From positions 364,541 to 428,540 of the forward strand of contig PKUK01000008.1 in assembly GCA_002869535.1 (NCBI GenBank): a stretch of 64,000 bases of DNA. Direction: 5' to 3'. Made by a program: the position numbers and the translations under genes. Below the pieces are notes generated by a model. That model ran no database searches. It worked only from the letters and a program-made list of their open reading frames with translations, and was not told the DNA's origin. This document shows, piece by piece, positions 11,078 to 25,879 of the stretch; position 1 is the first letter of the stretch; every line of letters starts with the position of its first letter. The stretch is from Arcobacter sp. Lineage in GTDB: Bacteria; Campylobacterota; Campylobacteria; Campylobacterales; Arcobacteraceae.

Positions 11078-12058
11078 TTAAATTGGTAAAACTCTAATGT
11101 TTTCATCAACTTTTTGTTTTAATACAGACTCAATTGCATAAAGTGTACCTGTAGCACCAGAAGCACATCCATTACATGCACCTAAATATCTAATATAAAT
11201 ATCATAATGAGGAATATTTTCTTTAATATCAATAATCTCCATATTTCCCCCATCCATAGCAAGCATAGGTCTAATATCTGCATCTAAGATTTCATCAATC
11301 ATTTTAATTCTTTGAACAATAGTCATTTTATCAAAAGTAGATTCTCCAGCTGCACTTGCATCTGCTGCTGATTTTAATCTATCATTTTCCATCTCAGCAT
11401 GAACATCTTTTAAAATATCTACTAAATAGATATCTTTCTCTTCATGTCCACCTGGCTTGATACATGATTTACAAAATGCTCCAGCTTTTGTATAATCAGT
11501 CACTTCTTCAACTGTTTGAAGGTTATTTAATTTGATTACTTCTTGTAATGTTGCTAATGAAACTCTCGCACACTCACAAACAATAACTTCTGTTTCAAAA
11601 GCATCCATATCAACACCTTTGAATTGTGATGCAGCTTTTTTAATAACATCATAAGCCATAACAGAACAGTGCATTTTTTGAGGTGGTACAGCAGGGACAT
11701 CTGGATGATCTCTTAATGCTTTTTCAACATCAATATTTGTAATTTTAACTGCCTCTGAAACAGTTTTTCCAATACATAATTCAGCCATAACATCAGATGA
11801 AGCAATTGCAGTTCCACATCCAAAAGATTTGAATTTTGAATTTAAAATCTCTTCTGTATTTTCATCTACAACCCAATATAGTCTAACTGCATCACCACAT
11901 GATTCTGCTCCAAAATCAGCAACGATTAATTTTCCACCAAGCTCTTTTGCCATCTCTTCTGTGATTTCACCTTGGTGTAAAGGTTCATCCATTCTTTTTA
12001 TTACTTGATTTGAGTATTCATCCCAAATCGATCCGCTTATTAAATCATTTTTTGCCAT
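11078..12058 (-). CDS. nifU: NifU-type iron-sulfur cluster scaffold
   Basis: A three-domain scaffold of 326 aa. The N-terminal IscU-like domain has its three cysteines (near FGAESCGDAV, KSFGCGTAIAS, MHCSVMAYD). The middle BFD-like 2Fe-2S domain has VCECARVS and AFCKSCIKPGG. The C-terminal Nfu domain has the CNGCASG motif. It assembles clusters from sulfur delivered by NifS and transfers them to apoproteins. AAGGA precedes the ATG. It lies 21 bases after nifS in the same direction. No nitrogenase genes are present, so this is the housekeeping Nif-type system known from Campylobacterota. Confidence 0.95.
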   Translation of the reverse strand: MAKNDLISGSIWDEYSNQVIKRMDEPLHQGEITEEMAKELGGKLIVADFGAESCGDAVRLYWVVDENTEEILNSKFKSFGCGTAIASSDVMAELCIGKTVSEAVKITNIDVEKALRDHPDVPAVPPQKMHCSVMAYDVIKKAASQFKGVDMDAFETEVIVCECARVSLATLQEVIKLNNLQTVEEVTDYTKAGAFCKSCIKPGGHEEKDIYLVDILKDVHAEMENDRLKSAADASAAGESTFDKMTIVQRIKMIDEILDADIRPMLAMDGGNMEIIDIKENIPHYDIYIRYLGACNGCASGATGTLYAIESVLKQKVDENIRVLPI

Positions 12059-12079
12059 TTTATAATCCTTTATATTTTT

Positions 12080-13309
<1,230 letters not shown>

Positions 13310-13320
13310 CTATTCCATAA

Positions 13321-13326
13321 ATTATA
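13321..13326 (-). promoter_or_regulatory. Likely -10 box for nifS-nifU
   Basis: On the minus strand this reads TATAAT, preceded by GGC, about 50 bases upstream of the nifS start. No good -35 is visible. Confidence 0.45.
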
Positions 13327-13451
13327 GCCTTTTTATACTGTTTGTGGAATTATAAAAAAAATAGGATAAAAATTGTCTTAATTAAAAAGGATAGATTTAG
13401 AAATTTATAATTTTACTATAAATTAAACTTAATTTAAATTATAAAACTAGG

Positions 13452-13457
13452 TATAAT
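13452..13457 (+). promoter_or_regulatory. Likely -10 box of the suf operon
   Basis: TATAAT about 80 bases before the sufB start and 33 bases before the palindrome at 13490. If used, the palindrome would lie just downstream of the transcription start, a good position for a repressor. Confidence 0.5.
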
Positions 13458-13489
13458 AATAAACGATTTATTAATAATTATATGTTAGA

Positions 13490-13524
13490 TTTATAAATAG
13501 GACAATATTAGTCCTATTTATAAA
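13490..13524. promoter_or_regulatory. Perfect palindrome in the suf leader, probable operator
   Basis: A 14-base arm ending TAGGAC (13490-13503), a 7-base spacer AATATTA, and the exact inverted arm beginning GTCCTA (13511-13524). It ends 12 bases before the sufB start and touches the Shine-Dalgarno (GGAGG at 13526-13530). The GAC-N7-GTC core has the same geometry as type 1 IscR sites of the Rrf2 family, but the outer bases do not match the IscR consensus. It could bind an iron-sulfur-sensing Rrf2 regulator encoded elsewhere, or act as an RNA hairpin that hides the ribosome site. Confidence 0.65.
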
Positions 13525-13535
13525 TGGAGGAATTT

Positions 13536-14969
13536 ATGAGTAATAATAAAATAAAAAATGTAATACAAAATGACTATAAATTAGGCTTTGAAACCATAAT
13601 AAATTCTGAAACATTTCCAAATGGTTTAAATGAAAATGTAATTAAAGCAATATCAAAAAAGAAAAATGAACCACAATGGCTTTGTGATTTTCGTATAAAA
13701 GCTTATAATAAATGGCTTACTATGGAAGAACCAAATTGGTCAAGTCTAAAAATAGATAAAATAGATTATCAAGAAATTTCATACTACTCTGCTCCAAAAA
13801 AAGAGTTAGACTCTTTAGATGAAGTTGATCCTAGTATATTAAAAACCTATGAAAAACTAGGTATTCCACTTGAAGAACAAAAGATGTTAGCAGGTGTAGC
13901 AGTAGATGCCGTTTTTGATTCAGTATCTGTTAAAACAACTTTTCACAAAGAGTTAGAAGAGTTGGGTATTATATTTTGTTCAATCAGTGATGCGGCAAAT
14001 AAACATCCTGAATTGCTTAAAAAATATCTAGCCTCAGTTGTTCCAATAGGAGATAATTACTTTGCCTGTTTGAATAGTGCAGTCTTTACAGATGGAAGTT
14101 TTGTATATATTCCACCAAAAACTAGATGTCCAATGGAACTTTCAACTTATTTTAGAATAAATGCATTAAATACTGGACAATTTGAGAGAACACTAATAAT
14201 CTGTGATGATGACTCTTATGTTTCATATAATGAAGGATGCTCAGCACCTTCTAGAGATGAAAGACAACTTCATGCAGCAGTTGTAGAACTAGTAGCCTTA
14301 AAAAATTCACAAATAAAATATTCTACTATTCAAAACTGGTATCCAGGGGATAAAGATGGTAAGGGTGGAATTTTAAACTTTGTTACTAAAAGAGGTATTT
14401 GTAAAGGTGATAATTCAAAAATATCATGGACACAAGTTGAAACTGGTTCTGCAATTACATGGAAATACCCTTCATGTGTTTTAAAAGGTGATAATAGTGT
14501 AGGAGAGTTTTATTCTGTAGCACTTACTTCCCTAGCTCAACAAGCAGATACAGGAACTAAGATGATGCATATAGGTAAAAATACAAAATCAACTATCATC
14601 TCAAAAGGTATTTCTGCCATGAGTGGGTCAAATGCCTATAGAGGATTAGTAAGAGTTGCAAAGGATGCTAAAAATTCTAGAAACTTTTCACAGTGTGACT
14701 CTTTACTTATAGGAAATAACTGTTCTGCACATACTTATCCGTATCAAGAAGTTAGAAATGCAAGTTCAAAAATAGAACATGAAGCAACAACTTCAAAAAT
14801 ATCAGATGAACAGCTCTTTTATATAAGACAAAGGGGTTTAAGTGAAGAGAATGCAGTTTCTTTAATAGTAAATGGATTTTGTAAAGAAGTACTTGATGAA
14901 CTTCCAATGGAGTTTGCAGTGGAAGCTAGAGAGTTATTAAATATCTCTTTAGAAGGTAGTGTAGGTTAA
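13536..14969 (+). CDS. sufB: Fe-S assembly scaffold SufB
   Basis: About 477 aa, the scaffold core of the SufBC2D complex, which assembles clusters under oxidative stress or iron limitation. Typical blocks are YISYYSAP-like [51 protein letters not shown], and a C-terminal block with [20 protein letters not shown] containing the conserved Glu/His. The start is ATG 13536, since GGAGG lies 5 bases upstream; the earlier ATG at 13524 lies within the palindrome. First gene of sufBCDSE. Confidence 0.96.
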
Positions 14970-14971
14970 AT

Positions 14972-14999
14972 TGAAAAATGAAAAATGAAAAATGAAAAA
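14972..14999 (+). repeat. Four tandem copies of a 7-bp unit between sufB and sufC
   Basis: TGAAAAA is repeated four times without error, filling most of the 45-base spacer between the sufB stop and the sufC start. The sufC Shine-Dalgarno (AAGGAAA) lies just downstream. Such short repeats can change copy number by slippage. Confidence 0.85.
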
Positions 15000-15014
15000 T
15001 TTTAAGGAAATAGT

Positions 15015-15755
15015 ATGCTTAGTATTAAAAATTTAAATGTAAAAATAGAAAACAATGAAATAATAAAAGATTTTAGTTTAGATATAAAAAAAGGTGAAAT
15101 TCACGCCCTTATGGGAATAAATGGGGCTGGAAAATCAACTATTGTAAAAGCTTTATGTGACCACTATGAGTGTGATGTAACATCTGGAAGTGTAGAGTAT
15201 AATGGAAAGGACCTATTAGAACTTGATGCAAGCCAAAGGGCAAATGAAGGTCTATTTTTATCATTTCAAAATCCTATTGAAGTAGCTGGAGTTAATAATA
15301 TGTATTTTCTAAAATCAGCTCTTAATGCAAAAAGAGAATATCAAGGTCTAAAAGAGTTAGATTCTGCTTCTTTTTTAAAAGAGATAAAAGAGATTACAGC
15401 CAAATTTGGTATAGACAATAAGATTTTAAAAAGAGATTTAAATGCTGGATTTAGTGGTGGAGAGAAAAAAAGAAATGAACTCTTACAACTTTTAGTTTTA
15501 AAACCTGATTTAATCTTACTTGATGAGATCGATTCTGGACTTGATGTGGATGCTATAAAACTTGTAGCAAATGGTATAAACTCACTTCTTGATGGTAATA
15601 GATCAGTTTTAATGATTACCCATTATGATAAATTATTAGAAGCTATTAAACCTGATTTTGTACATGTTTTAAAAGATGGTAAAATCGCACAAAGTGGTGA
15701 TTATTCATTGGCTGAACTTATTCAAGAAAAAGGTTACGAAGCAATAGGAGTGTAA
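15015..15755 (+). CDS. sufC: Suf ATPase SufC
   Basis: The ABC-type ATPase of the SufBCD complex, 246 aa. Walker A is MGINGAGKSTIVKAL, the Q-loop LSFQNPIEVAGV, the ABC signature FSGGEKKRNELLQLL, Walker B LILLDEIDSGLD, and the switch histidine ITHYDKLL. The signature and the DSGLD D-loop are typical of SufC. It is cytosolic, with no membrane partner. AAGGAAA precedes the ATG. Confidence 0.96.
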   Translation: MLSIKNLNVKIENNEIIKDFSLDIKKGEIHALMGINGAGKSTIVKALCDHYECDVTSGSVEYNGKDLLELDASQRANEGLFLSFQNPIEVAGVNNMYFLKSALNAKREYQGLKELDSASFLKEIKEITAKFGIDNKILKRDLNAGFSGGEKKRNELLQLLVLKPDLILLDEIDSGLDVDAIKLVANGINSLLDGNRSVLMITHYDKLLEAIKPDFVHVLKDGKIAQSGDYSLAELIQEKGYEAIGV

Positions 15756-15756
15756 T

Positions 15757-16794
15757 ATGAGAAATTTAGATATCAAAAACTTTCCTCTTGCCAATAAAAA
15801 AACTGAAGAGTTTAGAAAGTGTAATGTAAAAAATATAATTGAACTACAATATAAAGAAAATAGCTTTAAAGATGTAGTGAATTTTGATTTTGATTTTTTA
15901 AAACTTGAAGGCTTTAATAGAGTGTTTTTTGCAAATGAGAAGATTAAAGATCAAAATCTAATTGATGATATTAGCCTTGAAGAAAATATAATAACTATAA
16001 ATAAAGAGTGTAAAAATCCAATAATAATATTAAATTATTATGAGGATGAAAATACAATTTTTGAAAAAGATTTAAAATATAGTATTAATAGTAATAGCGA
16101 TATTTTGATTTTTGAAATATTTATATCAAAAAATAAAAAAAACTTAATAAATCAAAAAAGAGATTTTGATATAAAGAGTTCATCAAATGTAGAGTATGTA
16201 TATTTACAAAAACTATCTTTTGATGATTTTTTAGATATCAAATTTGAACCATCAATAAAAGAAGATTCAAAATTAAAATTCTTTAACTTTAATTTTGGGG
16301 CATCAAATGCTTATAATCAATTTGATATAAACTTGGATTATGCAAATTCAAACTTTGAGATGGAAGCGTTAACAAATATCTCTAAAAAACAAGAGATAGC
16401 AAATATTGTATCTACTATTCACAATGGTAAAAATAGCTCAAGTAGTATAAAAGCAAATCATATTTTAGATGAGAACTCCCATGGGATATTTGAAGTAAAA
16501 ACTAGAGTAAATCATGAAGCAAATAACTCAGCTGTAATACAAAACTCTAAAACAACTTTATTAGGTGATGATGCAATAATAAATGCTAACCCAAGACTTG
16601 AAATATTTATTGATGAGTTAACTGCAAGTCACGGGGCAACAACAGGTAGTTTGGATGAAGATATTTTATATTATTTACAATCAAGAGGATTATCAAGAAC
16701 GCAAGCCTCAAAAATGATGCTTGAAGCCATAGAAAATGCAATACTAGCTAAAATATCAAATGAAGAAATTAGAAATATAATAAAGGAGATATGA
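15757..16794 (+). CDS. sufD: Fe-S assembly protein SufD
   Basis: About 345 aa, low in conservation as usual for SufD, but with the SufB/SufD C-terminal core: DENSHGIFEVKTRVNHEANN, NPRLEIFIDELTASHGATTG (the conserved histidine region) and LYYLQSRGLSRTQASKMM. It pairs with SufB and is needed for iron entry in E. coli. It starts two bases after the sufC stop and overlaps sufS by one base. Confidence 0.9.
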   Translation: MRNLDIKNFPLANKKTEEFRKCNVKNIIELQYKENSFKDVVNFDFDFLKLEGFNRVFFANEKIKDQNLIDDISLEENIITINKECKNPIIILNYYEDENTIFEKDLKYSINSNSDILIFEIFISKNKKNLINQKRDFDIKSSSNVEYVYLQKLSFDDFLDIKFEPSIKEDSKLKFFNFNFGASNAYNQFDINLDYANSNFEMEALTNISKKQEIANIVSTIHNGKNSSSSIKANHILDENSHGIFEVKTRVNHEANNSAVIQNSKTTLLGDDAIINANPRLEIFIDELTASHGATTGSLDEDILYYLQSRGLSRTQASKMMLEAIENAILAKISNEEIRNIIKEI

Positions 16795-17969
16795 TGTTTA
16801 AAGATTATTTTCCTTATTTTAAAAATAGCAACATAATATATTTAGATAATGCAGCAACAACTCAAAAACCACAAGTTGTTATTGATGAAATTGTAAATTA
16901 TTATTCATTTTATTGTTCAAATACACATAGAAGTAATCATGGTGATGCAAATAAAGCAACACAGAAGTATGAACATACTCGTGAAGTTTTAAAAACATTT
17001 ATAAATGCAAAAGAAAAACATGAGATAATTTTTACAAAAGGTGTAACAGAGAGCATTAATTTTATAATAAATTCATATGCTAAAAATAGATTTAAAAAAG
17101 TTATAATCTCTTCTTTAGAACACCACTCAAATATTGTCCCCTGGCAAATTGCTAATATAGATTTTGAAGTAGTAAAATGTGATAAGAATCTAGATTTTGA
17201 TTATGAAGATTTTGAAAAAATATTAAAAGAAAACCCAAACTCTTTTGTCTCAGTTACTCACATATCAAATGCCTTTGGAAAGATTCATGATATAAAAAGA
17301 ATCACAAGTTTAGCCCATAAATATGGTGCGAAAGTTTTAATTGATGGAGCACAGAGTTTAACCCACAAAAAAATTGATGTTCAAGATTTAGATGTCGATT
17401 TTTTAGCAATCTCTTCACACAAAACTTTTGGACCAACAGGAGTTGGAGCTATTTATATAAAAGAAGAATTGTTAGATGAGATTGAGCCATATCAAACAGG
17501 AGGAGCAACAATCAATGATGTTACTTATAAAAAAAGCATTTTACTTGATTCTCCTTTTAAATTTGAAGCAGGAACTCAAAATATAGCAGGAGTCATTGGA
17601 TTTGGCAAAGCCATAGAGTTTATAAAGGAACTTGGATATGAAAATATTGAAAAAAAAGAGCAGGAATTATATGAGTACCTTTATGAAGAATTATCAAAAA
17701 TAGATGATATTATTTTTTATAGTGATATAAAAAATTCTATTGGCTCACTTAGTTTTAATATCAAAAATATAATGTCTGAAGATGTAGGTATTTTAGTTGA
17801 TAAAATGGGCATAGCTTTAAGATGTGGACATCACTGTGCTCAACCTATTATGAAAAGCCTTGGTATTGAAGGAACAATCCGAGTAAGTATTGCCTTTTAC
17901 AATGAAAAAGAGGATATTGATAAACTAATTATTGCTTTAAAAAAAGCCATAATGATGTTAAAGGATTAA
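16794..17969 (+). CDS. sufS: Cysteine desulfurase SufS
   Basis: A group II PLP cysteine desulfurase of 391 aa. It begins near YLDNAATTQKP, has the PLP lysine block AISSHKTFGPTGVGAIY, and the C-terminal active-site cysteine in ALRCGHHCAQPIMKSLG, the group II R-C-G-H-H-C-A-Q pattern, different from the NifS loop. It delivers sulfur through SufE. The start is the second of two adjacent ATGs (16794), with GGAG 5 bases upstream, overlapping the sufD stop as TGATG. Confidence 0.95.
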   Translation: MFKDYFPYFKNSNIIYLDNAATTQKPQVVIDEIVNYYSFYCSNTHRSNHGDANKATQKYEHTREVLKTFINAKEKHEIIFTKGVTESINFIINSYAKNRFKKVIISSLEHHSNIVPWQIANIDFEVVKCDKNLDFDYEDFEKILKENPNSFVSVTHISNAFGKIHDIKRITSLAHKYGAKVLIDGAQSLTHKKIDVQDLDVDFLAISSHKTFGPTGVGAIYIKEELLDEIEPYQTGGATINDVTYKKSILLDSPFKFEAGTQNIAGVIGFGKAIEFIKELGYENIEKKEQELYEYLYEELSKIDDIIFYSDIKNSIGSLSFNIKNIMSEDVGILVDKMGIALRCGHHCAQPIMKSLGIEGTIRVSIAFYNEKEDIDKLIIALKKAIMMLKD

Positions 17970-17970
17970 G

Positions 17971-18378
17971 ATGAGTATTGAAAAAAAAATTGATGAATTT
18001 AAAGATGATTTAGAACTTTTTGATGATGAACTTGAAAAATATCAATATATTATTGATTTGGGTAAAAAACTAAATAGCTTAGATGAAAAAGAGATGATAG
18101 ATGAAAATTTAGTTCAGGGTTGTACTTCAAAGGTTTGGCTAATAAAAGATAAAAATAGTGATGAATTAATTTTTAGGGCAGATTCTAATGCTGCTATTGT
18201 AAAAGGTTTAGTTTATATTATTACAACAATATTTTCAAATGAAAAAAAAGATGATATAAATAATCTAGATATAAATATCTTAGATAGATTAAATCTAACA
18301 GAAATAATAACACCAAATAGACAAAGTGGTGTACAAGGTATGATAAAAAAAATAAAAGAGTATGCAAAAGGAAATTAA
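17971..18378 (+). CDS. sufE: Sulfur acceptor SufE
   Basis: A 135-aa SufE family protein that takes the persulfide from SufS. The acceptor cysteine is in NLVQGCTSKVWLI, the defining motif; the C-terminal part GLVYIITTIFSNEK and IITPNRQSGVQGMIKKIKEY also fits. It starts one base after the sufS stop with AAGGA just upstream, and is followed immediately by the SufT-like gene, so the whole set is one operon. Confidence 0.94.
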   Translation: MSIEKKIDEFKDDLELFDDELEKYQYIIDLGKKLNSLDEKEMIDENLVQGCTSKVWLIKDKNSDELIFRADSNAAIVKGLVYIITTIFSNEKKDDINNLDINILDRLNLTEIITPNRQSGVQGMIKKIKEYAKGN

Positions 18379-18720
18379 ATGGAAAATTATAATGAAGAAG
18401 AAATAAAAGAGAAAATAATTGGACAACTAAAACATATATTTGATCCTGAAATTCCTGTAAATATTTATGACTTGGGATTAATTTATAAAATAGAATTAGA
18501 AGAAAAAGACAAAATACTAATATGCAATATCGATATGACACTAACAAGTCCAGGTTGCCCTGTTGCTGATAGTTTAATCAATGATGCAAGTTATGCAGTA
18601 AAAGTTTTAGATGAGATTGAACAAGTCAATATAAATCTGACATTTGACCCACCTTGGGATAAAAATAAAGTAACTGAAGATGGAAAAGATATGATGCTAG
18701 CAAATGGCTTTCTTATATAG
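18379..18720 (+). CDS. sufT: SufT/MIP18-family Fe-S maturation factor
   Basis: A 113-aa DUF59 (MIP18/PaaD-like) protein: FDPEIPVNIYDLGLIYKIEL with the D-P-E motif, MTLTSPGCPVADSLI with the conserved cysteine, and NLTFDPPWD. SufT homologues help mature Fe-S proteins and are often the last suf gene, as here. It begins right after the sufE stop. The start of the next gene is taken from a separate ATG at 18767, not the overlapping one at 18704. Confidence 0.9.
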   Translation: MENYNEEEIKEKIIGQLKHIFDPEIPVNIYDLGLIYKIELEEKDKILICNIDMTLTSPGCPVADSLINDASYAVKVLDEIEQVNINLTFDPPWDKNKVTEDGKDMMLANGFLI

Positions 18721-18766
18721 ATTTTATTATTTTTTTTATATAATAGTTAATAAGGAAAGGTTTGAT

Positions 18767-19048
18767 ATGAGTAAAACATCGAAAAAAGGCAGTCTATATA
18801 TAAAAATTGCAATAATATCAATCATACTATTTTTAGGTTATTTTTTCATTCCTACGGGTCAAAACAGTAGTTTTAACAATGCTGCAAAATTAAGAGGTGT
18901 CTCAAATAATAATCAGCCAATAAAATTACAATTTAGAAGTGGCTTTCAACATGATAAATATGAACCCTCTAAAAAAAGTACTTTTATGCAAAAAAGAATG
19001 GAAGCAAGTGATGAGGAGAAAAAACCAATATTTTGGGAGAAAAAATAG
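18767..19048 (+). CDS. Small single-pass membrane protein, paralog A of three
   Basis: 93 aa with a short basic N-terminus, one membrane segment (about residues 11-27, YIKIAIISIILFLGYFFIP), a disordered linker, then the block LQFRSGFQHDKYEPSKK and the ending EEKKPIFWEKK. The two following genes have the same design. The start is ATG 18767, with AAGGAAAGG upstream. It is 46 bases after sufT and may belong to the same transcript. The family is not recognised; the tail is predicted to be soluble, on one side of the inner membrane. Confidence 0.7.
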   Translation: MSKTSKKGSLYIKIAIISIILFLGYFFIPTGQNSSFNNAAKLRGVSNNNQPIKLQFRSGFQHDKYEPSKKSTFMQKRMEASDEEKKPIFWEKK

Positions 19049-19060
19049 AAAGGATCTCTA

Positions 19061-19351
19061 ATGAGAGAGGATTCCAACAGAATTTTAATTTATATAAAAA
19101 TACTAATTCTAATTGCTGGAATAATTTTTCTCATTACCTTTTTACCTAAAGATGAAAGTTGGGAAAAACTGGGAGATATGTATAACCCAATGTCCGCAAA
19201 TACAAAAAATAATTCAACAACTGCAGATCCTATAAAGTTACAATTTAGAACTGGATTAGAGTATGATTACAATAACATAGATAAAAAGAATGATTTTTTA
19301 GAAAAGAAAATGAAAATACAAAAGGATTCAGATGGAAGAAAAAAAGAGTAA
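19061..19351 (+). CDS. Small single-pass membrane protein, paralog B of three
   Basis: 96 aa with the same layout as its neighbours: basic start, membrane segment at about residues 10-27 (YIKILILIAGIIFLITFLP), a linker with WEKLGDMYNP also found in paralog C (WSNMGETYKP), and the block LQFRTGLEYDYNN. It lacks the KKP-x-FW ending of paralogs A and C, because it stops at GRKKE while overlapping the start of paralog C by 20 bases. AAAGGA precedes the ATG. Confidence 0.7.
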   Translation: MREDSNRILIYIKILILIAGIIFLITFLPKDESWEKLGDMYNPMSANTKNNSTTADPIKLQFRTGLEYDYNNIDKKNDFLEKKMKIQKDSDGRKKE

Positions 19352-19607
19352 TATAGGAATATATATAAAAATAGCAATTATAATAATTATATTAATTCTT
19401 GCCTATATCTATTTGCCAAAAAGCTGGTCAAATATGGGAGAAACTTATAAACCTAGAACAGTGGACAAAAGTGGTGGCCCAACTCCTACATCTTTACAAT
19501 TTAAAAATCCATTTAAGTATGATAACTACAAACCAGCTAAAAAAGTTGAACCACAAAAACCAACTGGCAATGGGGAAGAAAAAAAACCAACTTTTTGGAA
19601 TAATTAA
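19332..19607 (+). CDS. Small single-pass membrane protein, paralog C of three
   Basis: 91 aa: EEKKSNIGIYIKIAI start, a membrane segment (about residues 9-27), a proline-rich linker with WSNMGETYKP, the block LQFKNPFKYDNYKPAKK, and the ending EEKKPTFWNN, matching paralog A. AAGGA lies 5 bases before the ATG, inside paralog B. Function unknown. The three proteins diverge in sequence but keep the order membrane segment, LQF(R/K) block and lysine-rich tail, so they arose by tandem duplication. Confidence 0.7.
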   Translation: MEEKKSNIGIYIKIAIIIIILILAYIYLPKSWSNMGETYKPRTVDKSGGPTPTSLQFKNPFKYDNYKPAKKVEPQKPTGNGEEKKPTFWNN

Positions 19608-19660: not shown

Positions 19661-20902
19661 TTACTTCTCTAAAACTCTATTTAAAGTCTCAATAGAAATA
19701 TATTTATCATAATAAGCTTTATAATAATTTTGTTTTGCAGCACTAAGTAAATAGTTTGCATCAATTAAATTTGTGTTATCAGAAAGACCTTCTTTGAACC
19801 TATTTTTTACTATTTCATAATTCTCTTTTGATTGGTCAAGGGCTAATTTTGAAGTTTCAAAGTTAGCTTTTGCCACATCATAAGATGAAAGTGCATTTTG
19901 GTATTGAAGTTTAATATTAAGTCTTACTTTTGCTAGGTTTGCCACTGCTTTTTTTACTTGGATATTTTTCTTTATAACTTCACTATAATCACTATTTCCA
20001 TTATATAAATTCCAAGATGCTGTTATATTTAATACCTCTTGTGTATCTGGATAAGAAGCACGTCCACCTACATTTTCATCATCACCATACTTATTGTATG
20101 AAAGACTTGCATCAACCTTTGGCATAAAAGCACCTTTTGATCCAAATGACTGCTCTTTTATACTTTTTAAACTAAGTTCAGAGGCTTTTATTTCGCTTCT
20201 ATCTTCTAAAAGAGTTATATCATAAGTGTAGTTTTTATCTGTACTTACATTTAATTCATCAAGCTTTTCATTTGATAAATCATATCCACCTAAAATATTA
20301 CTCAAAGTATATGAAGAGATATTTAAATCTCCTTTTGCTTGAATAACACTCTGTTTTGCATTTAACATGTTTACTTCAACTTTTAATAAATCATTTCTTG
20401 AAATAATTCCTTGTGTATATTGACTTTGGGCATCCATGTATTGTTTTTCAAATAATTTATATGCATCTTCTTGAGTTTGAAGATTTTTTCTTTTATTCAG
20501 ATAATCAATGTATGCTTTTTTTGTATCTAATATAATATCCTGTTTTTTTGCATTGTAATAATACATTGAGGCATTTTTTAGATACTTAGAACTATATAAC
20601 TCACTAAAATCACTAAATCCATTAAATAGATTATATGAAATCGTCGCACTTGCAGTTGAGTCCTCTTTTATCTGTCCTGGTATTACTTTGTCTCTATTAT
20701 TATAAGAGTATGACAAGTCAGCTTTTGGTAAAAAAGCTGATTTTGTTTTATCATAATCCTCTTTTGACTCTTTGTATTCATAGTTGCTTATTGCAATATC
20801 TAAATTCTTCTCCAATGAGATATTTAAAACCTCATCGAGCGATATTGCAAATAAATTAGTTGCAACTAAAGATGACAATACTAAATATTTTATTTTCTTC
20901 AT
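19661..20902 (-). CDS. TolC-family outer membrane efflux protein
   Basis: 413 aa with an N-terminal signal peptide (about 19 residues, cleavage after NLFA). It has the internal repeat typical of TolC proteins: a coiled-coil helical half with LNISLEKNLDIAISNYEYKE and a second half with EVLNITASWNLYNGNSDYSE. Two NLYNG/NLFNG strands mark the beta-barrel segments (SYNLFNGFSD). It is the outer membrane channel for the RND pump encoded just upstream (9-base gap). AAGGA precedes the ATG. Confidence 0.9.
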   Translation of the reverse strand: MKKIKYLVLSSLVATNLFAISLDEVLNISLEKNLDIAISNYEYKESKEDYDKTKSAFLPKADLSYSYNNRDKVIPGQIKEDSTASATISYNLFNGFSDFSELYSSKYLKNASMYYYNAKKQDIILDTKKAYIDYLNKRKNLQTQEDAYKLFEKQYMDAQSQYTQGIISRNDLLKVEVNMLNAKQSVIQAKGDLNISSYTLSNILGGYDLSNEKLDELNVSTDKNYTYDITLLEDRSEIKASELSLKSIKEQSFGSKGAFMPKVDASLSYNKYGDDENVGGRASYPDTQEVLNITASWNLYNGNSDYSEVIKKNIQVKKAVANLAKVRLNIKLQYQNALSSYDVAKANFETSKLALDQSKENYEIVKNRFKEGLSDNTNLIDANYLLSAAKQNYYKAYYDKYISIETLNRVLEK

Positions 20903-20911
20903 TTTTTATCC

Positions 20912-23900
20912 TTATGCTTTACTAACATCAACTGGTTCTTTTACGTCACTTCTTTTAAGTCTTTGTTCTAATTTAATAAAAAACATCAAAAGTGCAGGAG
21001 TAACAAATATTGTAAATATTGTTGAAAATGCCAATCCACCTGTGATAACTGAACCTAAACCTCTATAGAACTCACTTCCAGGTCCTGGCATTAATACTAA
21101 AGGCAACATACCAAAAATAGAAGTTAATGAACTCATATAAATAGGACGAATTCTAGTTCGAGTTGCTTCTATTACAGCTTTTTTATGCTCCATTCCCTTA
21201 TCTCTTATATAATTCAAACTTTGATGAACAATTAAAATTGCATTGTTTACAACAATACCTACCAAAATAATAAACCCAAGCATGGTTAAAATATCCAAAG
21301 GCTGTGGAGCAATAAATATATTAGTAAGTTTCAATCCTATAAATCCACCTGCTGTTGCCAATGGAACTGTACACATAATTACAATTGGATATAAAAAGTT
21401 TCCAAACAGTGATGCCATAAGTAAATATACAATCACTAAAGCTAAAATAAAATTATCCATCAATAGTTTTATTGTTTCGGTTAATTTGTCAGCTGTACCA
21501 GAAATACCAATTTCAATATCCTCTGTAATAATACCTTTAGCTTTCATTCCTTCTAACATACCACCAATAGTTTTCATTGCTTCATCAATAGTCATACCAT
21601 CAGGAGGTGTCACTTGTAAGGTAATAGTTCTTTTTCCATTTAGGTGACGAATCTCTGAAATTCCCGTTGTAGAGATATAATCAGACATGGAAGAGACTGG
21701 CAATACCATGCCATTTGGTAAGGCAAGTAGTGATGCCATAACATCTTCTGGAGTTTTTACCAACTCTCCATCAGCTTTTAAAACGAGGTCAATTTTCTTT
21801 TTACCATCTTCTTCAAAATCACCAACTTTTCTACCACTCATAAGAACATCAATTGCAACTCCTAAATCCCTAGAACTTAAATCTAGTGCTTTAATTGCAT
21901 CTCTATTTGGTCTAATTCTAACTTCAGGATAAAGCAACTCTACTGATGGCACAGGTCGTACTTGACTTCCTTGTATTGCACCCATAGTAGCCCCATAAAG
22001 TTGAGCACCAATACTTGCAATCTCTTCAATCTTTTCACCACTAATATCAATATTAACAGTATTTCCTTCACCAACTCCACTTTCAAATACTCCTGATTGA
22101 AGTGAAACACCAAATACAGAAGGCATAGAGTTTACTATTGGTCTAAACATTGGTATTAAATCAGGAGCTCTATCTTCATGCATTGAAGTTCCACCAAAAA
22201 GTGTGAAGTCTCCAAAAGATACATAAAAGGCACGGCTTAGCCCAGGAATATCTCCAACATCTTTATTAACATGAGGCTCAATTTGTTTCATTAAATATGT
22301 ACCCATACCATATCTCTCATTATATGAAAGTCCAGGAGGTGTTATCAAAATATTAAATATTAAGTTCTTATTTCCCTTTGGTAAATAATCAAGTTTAGGA
22401 AAAAGTACATATATTGCCCCCACTGAAAAAACTGCTAAAGATAAAATAGTAACTATTTTAGTAAAAGTATTTTTTAAAGACATAGTTACAATTGACATTA
22501 TAAAATTAACTATTTTTTCTCCAAAGTTAGCTATTGCACCTGCATCTTTTGGCTCTTTTTTTGAAATTCCTGCAAATGATTTCCATAACATTGGAATAAC
22601 TGAAATTGAAACAAATAGTGAAAAAGTTACAGAAGCTGTTACTGCAATTGCAATATCTTTAAATAACTGTCCCGCTTCATCTTGTAAAAATACAATTGGC
22701 AAGAATACTGCAATAGTTGTAAGAGCAGAAGCAACCAATGCTCCACAAACTTCACTTGCACCTATATAGGCAGCATCAGCAATGCTCATACCCTCTTTTC
22801 TATGCCTATCAATATTTTCCAATACAACAATGGCACTATCAACAAGCATACCAACGGCAAAGGAGATACCTGCAAGAGAGATTGTATTTAAACTTCTTTC
22901 CATCGCACTTAATATTATAAAAGTACCAATAATAGATATTGGAATTGCAACAGAAACAACAGCAGTAGGAGAGATACTTCTTAAAAATAAAATTAGAATA
23001 AATACTGCTAAAACACCACCTATCATAATATTTTGTTTAACTAAATCAACAGAACCAACGATATAAGGTCTTTGGTCATATATCCATTGTATTTTTAGTT
23101 TTTCATCTTTTAAAACACCTGCATTAAGTTCATTTACTACTTTTTCAACTTCATCTGTAAGCTGAACAATATTAGAACCTGCACTTGGTTGAACACCTAA
23201 GAATATCCCATCTTTTCCTAAATACATAGCAACACCATTTGCAGTTTCATATCCAAAATCAACTGTTGCAATATCTTTAACTGTAACTATTTTATCCCGA
23301 GTAGATATCAAAACAACTTTTTCAATATCTTTGGGTGAAGCAAATTTATTTACAGTTCTAATTCGGTAGGCTCTTCTATTTATATTTTGAATACCTGCAG
23401 AAACATCTATATTTTCATTTTGTATTGTTGATATTACTTGAGAAACAGTTAATCCATATGATGCCAATTTGTTCACATCAAATACAATTTGCATCTGCTG
23501 CTCTCTACCACCAATATCCATAGTTCCTGACACACCATTAACTCTTTTTATAACAGGTTTTATTTCATTATCAAAAAAAGTTCTATATTCATCTATATGT
23601 CTTGGATTATCTTTGAAAGTTTGCAACATCATCCAAATAACTGGACTTGCTGTTGCTGTTTCAATGATAGGTTCATCCACATTATTTGGGTATGAGCTTA
23701 CCTCATTTAACTTATTTGAAACATCTTGTAAAGCTACACGAATATCCGTATCTAACTTAAATGTTAAAGTTATCTCTCCCCTATCATCTTTGGCAGATGA
23801 TTCATATTCAATTAGATTATTTAAACTTTTAAGGGCATCTTCTTGCTCTTCTATTATCTCTCGCTCTATTTCATGAGGAGTTGCGCCTGGCCATACTGTT

Positions 23901-24043
23901 GTTATTTTAATCTCAGGTTTTGTTACTGAGGGTGTTAATTGATATGGTAATTTAGTAAGTGACAAAAAACCAAACAATACAACGATTAAAACTGAAACAA
24001 TAATAGTTACAGGATTTTTAATCGAAAACTTAATTAAATCCAT
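20912..24043 (-). CDS. RND-type (HAE1) efflux permease
   Basis: 1043 aa, the size of AcrB-class pumps. The N-terminus begins LIKFSIKNPVTIIVSVLIVV; the periplasmic porter domain includes TTVWPGATPHEIEREI. The TM4 proton-relay motif is GMLVDSAIVVLENIDRHRKEG, with the Asp; TM10 and later segments end in GIVVNNAILIVHQSLNY. It uses proton influx to expel drugs, detergents or bile salts through the TolC-like channel. The operon is adaptor, permease, channel. AGGA precedes the ATG. Substrates cannot be told from sequence. Confidence 0.93.
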   Translation of the reverse strand: MDLIKFSIKNPVTIIVSVLIVVLFGFLSLTKLPYQLTPSVTKPEIKITTVWPGATPHEIEREIIEEQEDALKSLNNLIEYESSAKDDRGEITLTFKLDTDIRVALQDVSNKLNEVSSYPNNVDEPIIETATASPVIWMMLQTFKDNPRHIDEYRTFFDNEIKPVIKRVNGVSGTMDIGGREQQMQIVFDVNKLASYGLTVSQVISTIQNENIDVSAGIQNINRRAYRIRTVNKFASPKDIEKVVLISTRDKIVTVKDIATVDFGYETANGVAMYLGKDGIFLGVQPSAGSNIVQLTDEVEKVVNELNAGVLKDEKLKIQWIYDQRPYIVGSVDLVKQNIMIGGVLAVFILILFLRSISPTAVVSVAIPISIIGTFIILSAMERSLNTISLAGISFAVGMLVDSAIVVLENIDRHRKEGMSIADAAYIGASEVCGALVASALTTIAVFLPIVFLQDEAGQLFKDIAIAVTASVTFSLFVSISVIPMLWKSFAGISKKEPKDAGAIANFGEKIVNFIMSIVTMSLKNTFTKIVTILSLAVFSVGAIYVLFPKLDYLPKGNKNLIFNILITPPGLSYNERYGMGTYLMKQIEPHVNKDVGDIPGLSRAFYVSFGDFTLFGGTSMHEDRAPDLIPMFRPIVNSMPSVFGVSLQSGVFESGVGEGNTVNIDISGEKIEEIASIGAQLYGATMGAIQGSQVRPVPSVELLYPEVRIRPNRDAIKALDLSSRDLGVAIDVLMSGRKVGDFEEDGKKKIDLVLKADGELVKTPEDVMASLLALPNGMVLPVSSMSDYISTTGISEIRHLNGKRTITLQVTPPDGMTIDEAMKTIGGMLEGMKAKGIITEDIEIGISGTADKLTETIKLLMDNFILALVIVYLLMASLFGNFLYPIVIMCTVPLATAGGFIGLKLTNIFIAPQPLDILTMLGFIILVGIVVNNAILIVHQSLNYIRDKGMEHKKAVIEATRTRIRPIYMSSLTSIFGMLPLVLMPGPGSEFYRGLGSVITGGLAFSTIFTIFVTPALLMFFIKLEQRLKRSDVKEPVDVSKA

Positions 24044-24051
24044 TTCTTATC

Positions 24052-25047
24052 CTATTTGTTTATTATTTTTACAGGTGAATTAGGAAAAACTCTTTCATTC
24101 CCTTTACTAACTATGTTCTGTCCCTGTGCTAAACCTTCACCATCTATCGCAACGCTATCTTGTAAATATGCAATAATCTGTACAGGAATCATTTGTGCAA
24201 TCATTTTATCATCAATAATAAAAACAATATTTTGTCCAAATCTTTTTATAACAGCATCTCTTGGAACAATAAGTGCTTCTTGTACTGCATTTTTAGACAA
24301 GCTTACCTTTGCTTCTTCTCCATCAAAAACAAATATTTTGCTTGTATTAGCTTTAAACTTTACAGGGAAAGTTCTAGTTATCTTATCACCACTTGGTATT
24401 GCACCACTCATTTTTCCTTTTATAACATCTTTACCAACCCTAATATCATATGTATCATCTTTTTTTAATCCATAATAAATACTCAATGGAACATTAAATG
24501 TTATCTCTGCTTTTGAAGTATCTACAATTGAAGCCAGTGATGTTCCTGCATTTACCCATTCCCCTAAGTCAATACTCTTTTCTACCATAATTCCACTATA
24601 TGGTGCTTTTATGCTTTTTTTCTCTTTTTGTATTTCTAACTCATTTAAGGTACTTTGTGTTGTAACAGATTTTAATTTCATATCATCATACTGTTTTTTA
24701 GAAACAGATTTTGTCTCTAACAGTTTTGAATATCTTTCATAATCTTTTTTTGCACTCTTAGCATTTGCTCGTGCTGATTTCACTTGTGCATTTAATAAAT
24801 CTGCATCTATTTGAATCAGTGTTTGCCCTTTTTTTACAGCATCCCCTACTTCAAAATTTATATTTTTTACTACACCTGAATTTTGAGCAGCTAAAACTGA
24901 GTTTCTATCAAACTTTAGTGTTCCTACAAACTCTTGCAAAGGATTAACTTCTCCTTTTATTATTTTTGTAGTCTCAACCAGTGATGGAGCACCTGCTGCA
25001 AATAGTGCAACAGATGAAAGCACTACTACTAATACCTTCTTAAACAT
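24052..25047 (-). CDS. Periplasmic adaptor (membrane fusion protein) of the RND pump
   Basis: 331 aa with a signal peptide (residues 1-18, VALFAAG). It has the lipoyl halves VKNINFEVGDAVKKGQTLIQID and KSIKAPYSGIMVEKSIDLGEWV flanking a short helical hairpin (about residues 77-135), then the beta-barrel and membrane-proximal domains. No lipobox is evident, so it is not an obvious lipoprotein. The helical hairpin is short compared with AcrA. It lies 8 bases upstream of the permease. AAGGA precedes the ATG. Confidence 0.92.
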   Translation of the reverse strand: MFKKVLVVVLSSVALFAAGAPSLVETTKIIKGEVNPLQEFVGTLKFDRNSVLAAQNSGVVKNINFEVGDAVKKGQTLIQIDADLLNAQVKSARANAKSAKKDYERYSKLLETKSVSKKQYDDMKLKSVTTQSTLNELEIQKEKKSIKAPYSGIMVEKSIDLGEWVNAGTSLASIVDTSKAEITFNVPLSIYYGLKKDDTYDIRVGKDVIKGKMSGAIPSGDKITRTFPVKFKANTSKIFVFDGEEAKVSLSKNAVQEALIVPRDAVIKRFGQNIVFIIDDKMIAQMIPVQIIAYLQDSVAIDGEGLAQGQNIVSKGNERVFPNSPVKIINK

Positions 25048-25058
25048 ATATTATCCTT

Positions 25059-25280
25059 CTATTTTATTAATTTATTTGTGATATTATGCACTATAGGTGC
25101 AACAATAAATACTATTGGAAATGCAAATATAAATGCTTTTACAAATGCCTCCAGCCACTTTAAAACAAAACCGTCAATGAAACCTAAATTTATAAATGTA
25201 ATTACAAAACTCATTATAAAACTCATAAATAAAGACATGAAAAAAGCAAAAACTAATCTTGTATATTTTTTTGGAATCAT
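25059..25280 (-). CDS. DUF2798-like small membrane protein
   Basis: 73 aa with two membrane segments (about residues 8-30 and 45-66), resembling DUF2798 proteins: FAFFMSLFMSFIMSFVITF and a second segment with the pattern A-x-x-x-A-F-P. The function of the family is unknown; members often lie near TetR regulators and transporters, as here. The ATG overlaps the tetR stop (ATGA), so it is translated with tetR and lies between the regulator and the pump genes. Confidence 0.7.
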   Translation of the reverse strand: MIPKKYTRLVFAFFMSLFMSFIMSFVITFINLGFIDGFVLKWLEAFVKAFIFAFPIVFIVAPIVHNITNKLIK

Positions 25281-25879
25281 TGTTTTTTCTCAATTACTTC
25301 AAAAATATTATTTAAAAATTTTTCACATGAGAATTTAGCATCAAAACTTGTTTGTGTCATTTTCATCAATACTACACCCTTTTCAAACAACATGATTCCA
25401 TCAACAAAATTTCTAGCTATGGGGAGTAATTCTTCATTATTAATTCCCTCTTCAATTATCTCTTTTAATTGATTTTGAAAAAACTCTGTGCATGAAGTAT
25501 TAAAGTTACACATAGATTCATTCTCTTCTGCTAAAACAATTGATAAGTATTCTCTATAACCATTAAAATGTCTAATATTTTCTTCTGTCTCATTCATAAC
25601 AAAATCAAAGAAGTGAAATACTTTCTCTTTAGTTGATTTTACATCTTTGATTTTTTCTAAAAACATTTTATGATGATACTCTATGTGCACATTTATTATT
25701 TCAAAAATAATATCTTCTTTATTTTCAAAATACTCATATACAGTTCCCTTGCCTATTCCAGCACTTTTTGCAACTTGGGCAACTGTAATATTTTTCATTC
25801 CAACATCATGTATTAAATCAAAACAAGCAAGTGCAACTTCTCTTCTTCTTTCTTCTTTATTGACTTTTTTAGGACTCAT
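25277..25879 (-). CDS. TetR/AcrR-family regulator of the efflux operon
   Basis: 200 aa with an N-terminal helix-turn-helix: IKNITVAQVAKSA-type sequence VGMKNITVAQVAKSAGIGKG followed by TVYEYFENKEDI, the classic TetR motif. The C-terminal ligand domain is unique. It leads the tetR-DUF2798-adaptor-permease-channel operon, and two TGAC-based palindromes lie just upstream, so autorepression with derepression by a pump substrate is the likely mode. AAGGAG precedes the ATG. Confidence 0.92.
   Translation of the reverse strand: MSPKKVNKEERRREVALACFDLIHDVGMKNITVAQVAKSAGIGKGTVYEYFENKEDIIFEIINVHIEYHHKMFLEKIKDVKSTKEKVFHFFDFVMNETEENIRHFNGYREYLSIVLAEENESMCNFNTSCTEFFQNQLKEIIEEGINNEELLPIARNFVDGIMLFEKGVVLMKMTQTSFDAKFSCEKFLNNIFEVIEKKQ

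Follow-up and report, generated by a model that had tools for sequence, protein, structure and literature searches.

Smp, a Family of Small Membrane Proteins Encoded behind the suf Cluster and, by Sequence Comparison, Specific to the Arcobacter Family

Three tandem genes for small membrane proteins lie directly behind a suf cluster in a 64,000-nucleotide stretch of Arcobacter sp. DNA (hereafter the window). Sequence searches place their products, here named Smp, in a previously undescribed family that is specific to the Arcobacter family and absent from the libraries searched. On the basis of its anatomy, Smp may be an inner-membrane anchor whose conserved motif, a docking peptide, is displayed on a flexible, probably periplasmic tether to engage a partner, with the array formed by duplication and crossover; we give this reading a probability of roughly 40%.

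RESULTS

An Array of Three Paralogous Genes

The array lies on the forward strand and consists of smpA (18767..19048; 93 amino acids), smpB (19061..19351; 96 amino acids), and smpC (19332..19607; 91 amino acids), the second and third of which share 20 nucleotides. smpA encodes a single-span membrane protein. The suf cluster, composed of sufB, sufC, sufD, sufS, sufE, and a sufT-like gene (13539..18720, identified with NCBIfam), is found immediately upstream on the same strand, with the SUF-associated sufT-like gene (18379-18720) directly before the array. The original prediction, that three consecutive paralogous genes for small membrane proteins stand directly after suf and that the last two overlap, was thus correct in its layout. 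Downstream of the array and convergent with it on the reverse strand is a block (19661..25879) containing tolC, an RND permease, and an adaptor, all named by NCBIfam, together with an unnamed regulator-like ORF. Separately, two Fe-S assembly systems adjoin divergently in the window (11078-18720), namely nifU-nifS on the reverse strand and sufBCDSE-T on the forward strand.

A search of the genome with SmpC as the query returned SmpA (42% identity, E = 1.5e-13) and SmpB (39% identity, E = 1e-7) and no further convincing copy. The hydrophobic helix was removed and the post-helix tails were aligned against 1000 shuffles per pair. Alignment scores were 88 for A-B (shuffles 26.8 ± 5.3, z = 11.7), 91 for A-C (26.3 ± 5.0, z = 12.9), and 66 for B-C (25.9 ± 5.0, z = 8.0), and no shuffle reached the observed score for any pair. 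The likeness of the three proteins is true paralogy and not an artefact of the membrane helix. The predicted shared block LQF(R/K)xxFxxDxY is exact in SmpA and SmpC; it does not extend intact to SmpB, which reads LQFRTGLEYDYN with Leu for Phe and a shifted Tyr. The EEKKPxFW ending is found in two copies, as had been noted, with SmpA terminating in EEKKPIFWEKK and SmpC in EEKKPTFWNN; it is absent from SmpB.

Orthologs of smpA and smpC occupy the same place after sufT in two congeners (G032 and G033), with smpA directly behind sufT and SmpC 63-67% identical to the window copy. Relative to these two species, dN/dS was 0.24-0.34 for smpA and smpC (0.28-0.34 for smpA) compared with 0.09-0.12 for the comparison genes sufT and sufE, showing that smpA and smpC are protein-coding and under purifying selection. 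No ortholog of smpB was found in either congener, and this copy is present only in the window genome. A TATAAT hexamer at 18739..18744 (forward strand; -28 relative to the smpA start) is retained at the same position in the window species and both congeners and is a candidate promoter of the array's own; in a general promoter scan, matches were no more frequent than in shuffled sequence.

Origin of the Array

Most carrier genomes have a single smp copy, as do most genera, and two copies are found in G032 and G033. In a tree of 31 proteins, SmpA, SmpB, and SmpC group with their congeners (support 87/74). The tree is based on 75 columns and contains many open forks, but this grouping makes the duplication look like the genus's own. 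The pairs of copies in G080, G094, and G091/G095 appear to be separate duplications, with weak support in the tree. The N-terminal half of SmpB scores 87.5 against SmpC and 29 against SmpA, and its C-terminal half scores 72 against SmpA and 26 against SmpC. This suggests a C/A hybrid, its end eroded, of the kind that unequal crossing-over within an A-C pair would leave, although a residue-by-residue test of the hybrid pattern was not significant (Fisher p = 0.13). A genus-level duplication would have given smpA and smpC, and smpB is probably an addition in the window species, the product of unequal crossing-over of smpC with smpA. It had been proposed that the amplification reflects selection for diversified copies. 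The paralogs are real; the triplication is a genus- or species-level event, however, and this leaves very little basis for that proposal.

Two other tandem arrangements were seen in these genomes. At L142:899-2713 (G012), two tandem and very similar ORFs (MLNKIIKKIDNLPPLPQT...) lie between sufT and accC. At L053:928-4671 (G060:C91), six tandem paralogous ORFs of ∼200 amino acids, starting MNVTETQQNYTNYQ or similar, share a contig with the second smp-like copy of that genome.

Reach and Anatomy of the Smp Family

A family profile built from 26 members matched 53 of 104 genomes of the Arcobacter family at E = 1e-8 or better, and the next matches came only at 3e-4. Matches with E above about 1e-4 were counted as noise except in genus g17, where the context supports them. 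In a phylum-wide search of 397 genomes, none outside the Arcobacter family reached 1e-8. One peptide scan of genome contigs returned three loci from metagenomes, under the titles Campylobacteraceae, Arcobacter, and Halarcobacter; an earlier scan of this kind gave no match, and a search of viral contigs and plasmids found no smp. No known family had been recognized for the array. In agreement with this, profile searches of Pfam, NCBIfam, PHROGs, and the PDB gave no consistent family, the weak and scattered matches differing between members; the best, NF047771, was obtained with two of the 26 members at E = 4e-5. No Suf component in NCBIfam matches Smp, and a literature search on this bacterial group, covering suf and small membrane proteins, yielded nothing relevant.

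In Smp proteins an N-terminal segment leads into a single hydrophobic helix, behind which come a variable, low-complexity, disordered linker and a short tail motif, P-x-x-L-x-(W/F)-x-x-x-F, which is often followed by K-G-x-x-N. The Pro and Leu residues of the motif are invariant in the alignments and the final Phe is more than 90% conserved. SmpA and SmpC match the family definition of one N-terminal helix and this tail motif in full, and SmpB has Leu for Phe. Cysteine is lacking in 44 of 49 members. AlphaFold models from 26- and 43-sequence inputs contain one confident helix (pLDDT up to 95) and a low-confidence tail with no fold.

Across the 49 members the mean number of Lys and Arg residues is 3.3 before the helix and 2.1 after it, favoring a cytoplasmic N terminus. 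Applied member by member, the charge rule gives a weak preference, with 28 of 49 proteins N-in, 12 reversed, and nine tied; in all three window copies the two flanks of the helix are nearly balanced in Lys/Arg.

Linkage of smp to suf

One suggested check was whether the array stays beside suf in relatives; the neighborhood is conserved. Wherever smp and sufT occur on one contig (56 copies of smp, without exception), smp lies downstream of sufT in the same orientation, at distances from 6 bp to 32 kb. The nearest copy lies 6-90 bp from sufT in genera g1, g15, and g18 and in most of g19; the distance is 1.2-31.6 kb in g2, g3, g4, g9, and two g19 genomes. The sufB gene is present in 77 of the 104 genomes, among them 52 of the 53 smp carriers, and smp is absent from 26 of the 27 genomes without sufB (Fisher p = 2e-9, uncorrected for kinship between genomes). 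The single genome with smp and without sufB is G060, a draft with an estimated completeness of 91%.

The 25 sufB-positive genomes that have no smp match at threshold indicate that suf works without smp. The 14 kb behind sufT was inspected in several smp-negative genomes, and nothing was found in the place of smp; in G090 and G097, sufT is followed directly by a transporter gene. The 25 include the two genomes of genus g17 (G084 and G085), in which a divergent smp copy stands beside nifSU and RND genes, away from suf. Suf clusters were also read in five genomes from the order's other families, and the stretches covered contained no smp-like gene. Taken together, the placement and the absences show a link between smp and suf that is old within the family and conserved in orientation but not obligatory.

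A Second Small Protein, Smp2

In 23 genomes of five genera (13 of 16 in g9, six of six in g15, plus g3, g4, and g17), the gene immediately behind smp encodes a membrane protein of ∼50 amino acids, Smp2, which has one helix and a very conserved tail, MWKFKNRKKDGSEDxDFKYFD. No database match was found for Smp2, which, like Smp, is confined to the Arcobacter family. The gene is unlinked from smp in genera g1 and g2, and several g2 genomes have Smp2 without smp. The copy in the window's own genome is at G000:C9:138065-138214, outside the window and away from the array; further loci include L157:11864-12013 and L063:1795-1947, among others. Smp2 has no Lys or Arg before its helix and 4.4 after it, and by the charge rule its tail is cytoplasmic, a topology opposite to that favored for Smp. 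A second Smp2-like copy at G035:C1:821919-822050, about 1.6 kb from an intact one, is apparently cut by an internal stop.

DISCUSSION

From the anatomy of the family we infer an N-in, C-out protein with a tethered docking peptide. The helix would anchor Smp in the inner membrane with the N terminus inside, the disordered linker would act as a flexible tether presenting the motif, probably on the periplasmic side, and P-x-x-L-x-(W/F)-x-x-x-F would dock a partner, much as small accessory subunits do. This partner could be Smp2, whose gene adjoins smp in five genera, or a membrane complex; an inner-membrane complex had been suggested at the outset. Smp proteins are most likely accessory and dispensable. 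As a more elaborate proposal, which we consider quite improbable, Smp and Smp2 would form a two-protein membrane module found only in the Arcobacter family, and its tethered PxxLxWxxxF docking peptide would connect the inner membrane with Fe-S assembly or with an envelope process.

Among the alternatives, the one that survives best is that Smp has an envelope or stress role particular to its lineage and is not specifically linked to suf; its position would reflect a block that is slow to rearrange and has been inherited vertically, and its copy number would have drifted. The conserved block also holds unrelated genes (nifSU, RND, a DMT transporter, and a yjbQ-like gene), and the suf linkage may be slow-moving synteny only. 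Repeated loss and duplication of smp, the candidate promoter, and the association, within g2, of smp absence with smaller genomes all fit such a protein. However, the retention of the motif over highly divergent sequences, together with purifying selection, points to a specific function, and we regard this explanation as somewhat unlikely.

Less probable still is that Smp is a dedicated Suf accessory, which would tether Fe-S assembly to the membrane or support it there, for instance for delivery to respiratory Fe-S proteins. The invariant position and strand of smp behind sufT, its abutment on sufT in g1, g15, g18, and part of g19, and its co-occurrence with sufB are what such an accessory would give. 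Against these stand the suf-positive genomes below threshold, with clean absence in G090 and G097, the relocated g17 copy, and the lack of such a gene behind the suf clusters that were read in the order's other families. The near-absence of cysteines also speaks against a Suf role, and the motif, if periplasmic, would be out of reach of cytosolic Suf. Were the suf link functional, Fe-S assembly of this group would gain a membrane component; to our knowledge, none is otherwise known there.

We think it very doubtful that Smp serves the neighboring TolC/RND efflux pump as a small accessory subunit, in the way AcrZ serves AcrB. In most carriers the pump genes are found close behind smp in convergent orientation, and they accompany smp even in g17, where it has left suf. 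Nevertheless, about 15 carriers lack a permease ortholog, one of them being G032 with both of its array genes, and in the loci read the pump is encoded on the strand opposite to smp. The pump as an obligatory partner is rejected on account of the missing permease orthologs; the tolC/RND block is a mere neighbor, which smp does not need. Finally, the possibility that the array consists of chance or mis-called ORFs, which might be raised for short genes in an A+T-rich genome, is refuted by the tail shuffles, the dN/dS values, and the relatives in 53 genomes.

The short conserved motif of Smp lends itself to mutation. More broadly, the analysis defines two lineage-restricted families of small membrane proteins, Smp and Smp2, both of which the standard libraries lack. 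On a sober view, Smp is one more orphan small-protein family and a tidy example of tandem expansion, of modest interest.

Comparison of the two families shows that Smp and Smp2 are unrelated in sequence and differ in the topology given by the charge rule, and they are unlinked in the window's genus; nevertheless, both are tiny one-helix proteins with the same taxonomic limit. With respect to the SUF operon (sufBCDSE and sufT), Smp resembles none of the components in NCBIfam, and it is missing from those suf clusters of the order's other families that were read, but smp is adjacent to the operon, on the same strand, and the linkage is conserved. Small single-span accessory subunits of larger systems are known, of the type of CydX, AcrZ, and CcoQ. 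Smp differs from these in having no sequence match to families in the libraries searched, a longer linker before the motif, and no large partner identified in an operon of its own. It is like them in size (under about 100 amino acids), in its one helix and short conserved patch, and in having its gene beside a larger system.
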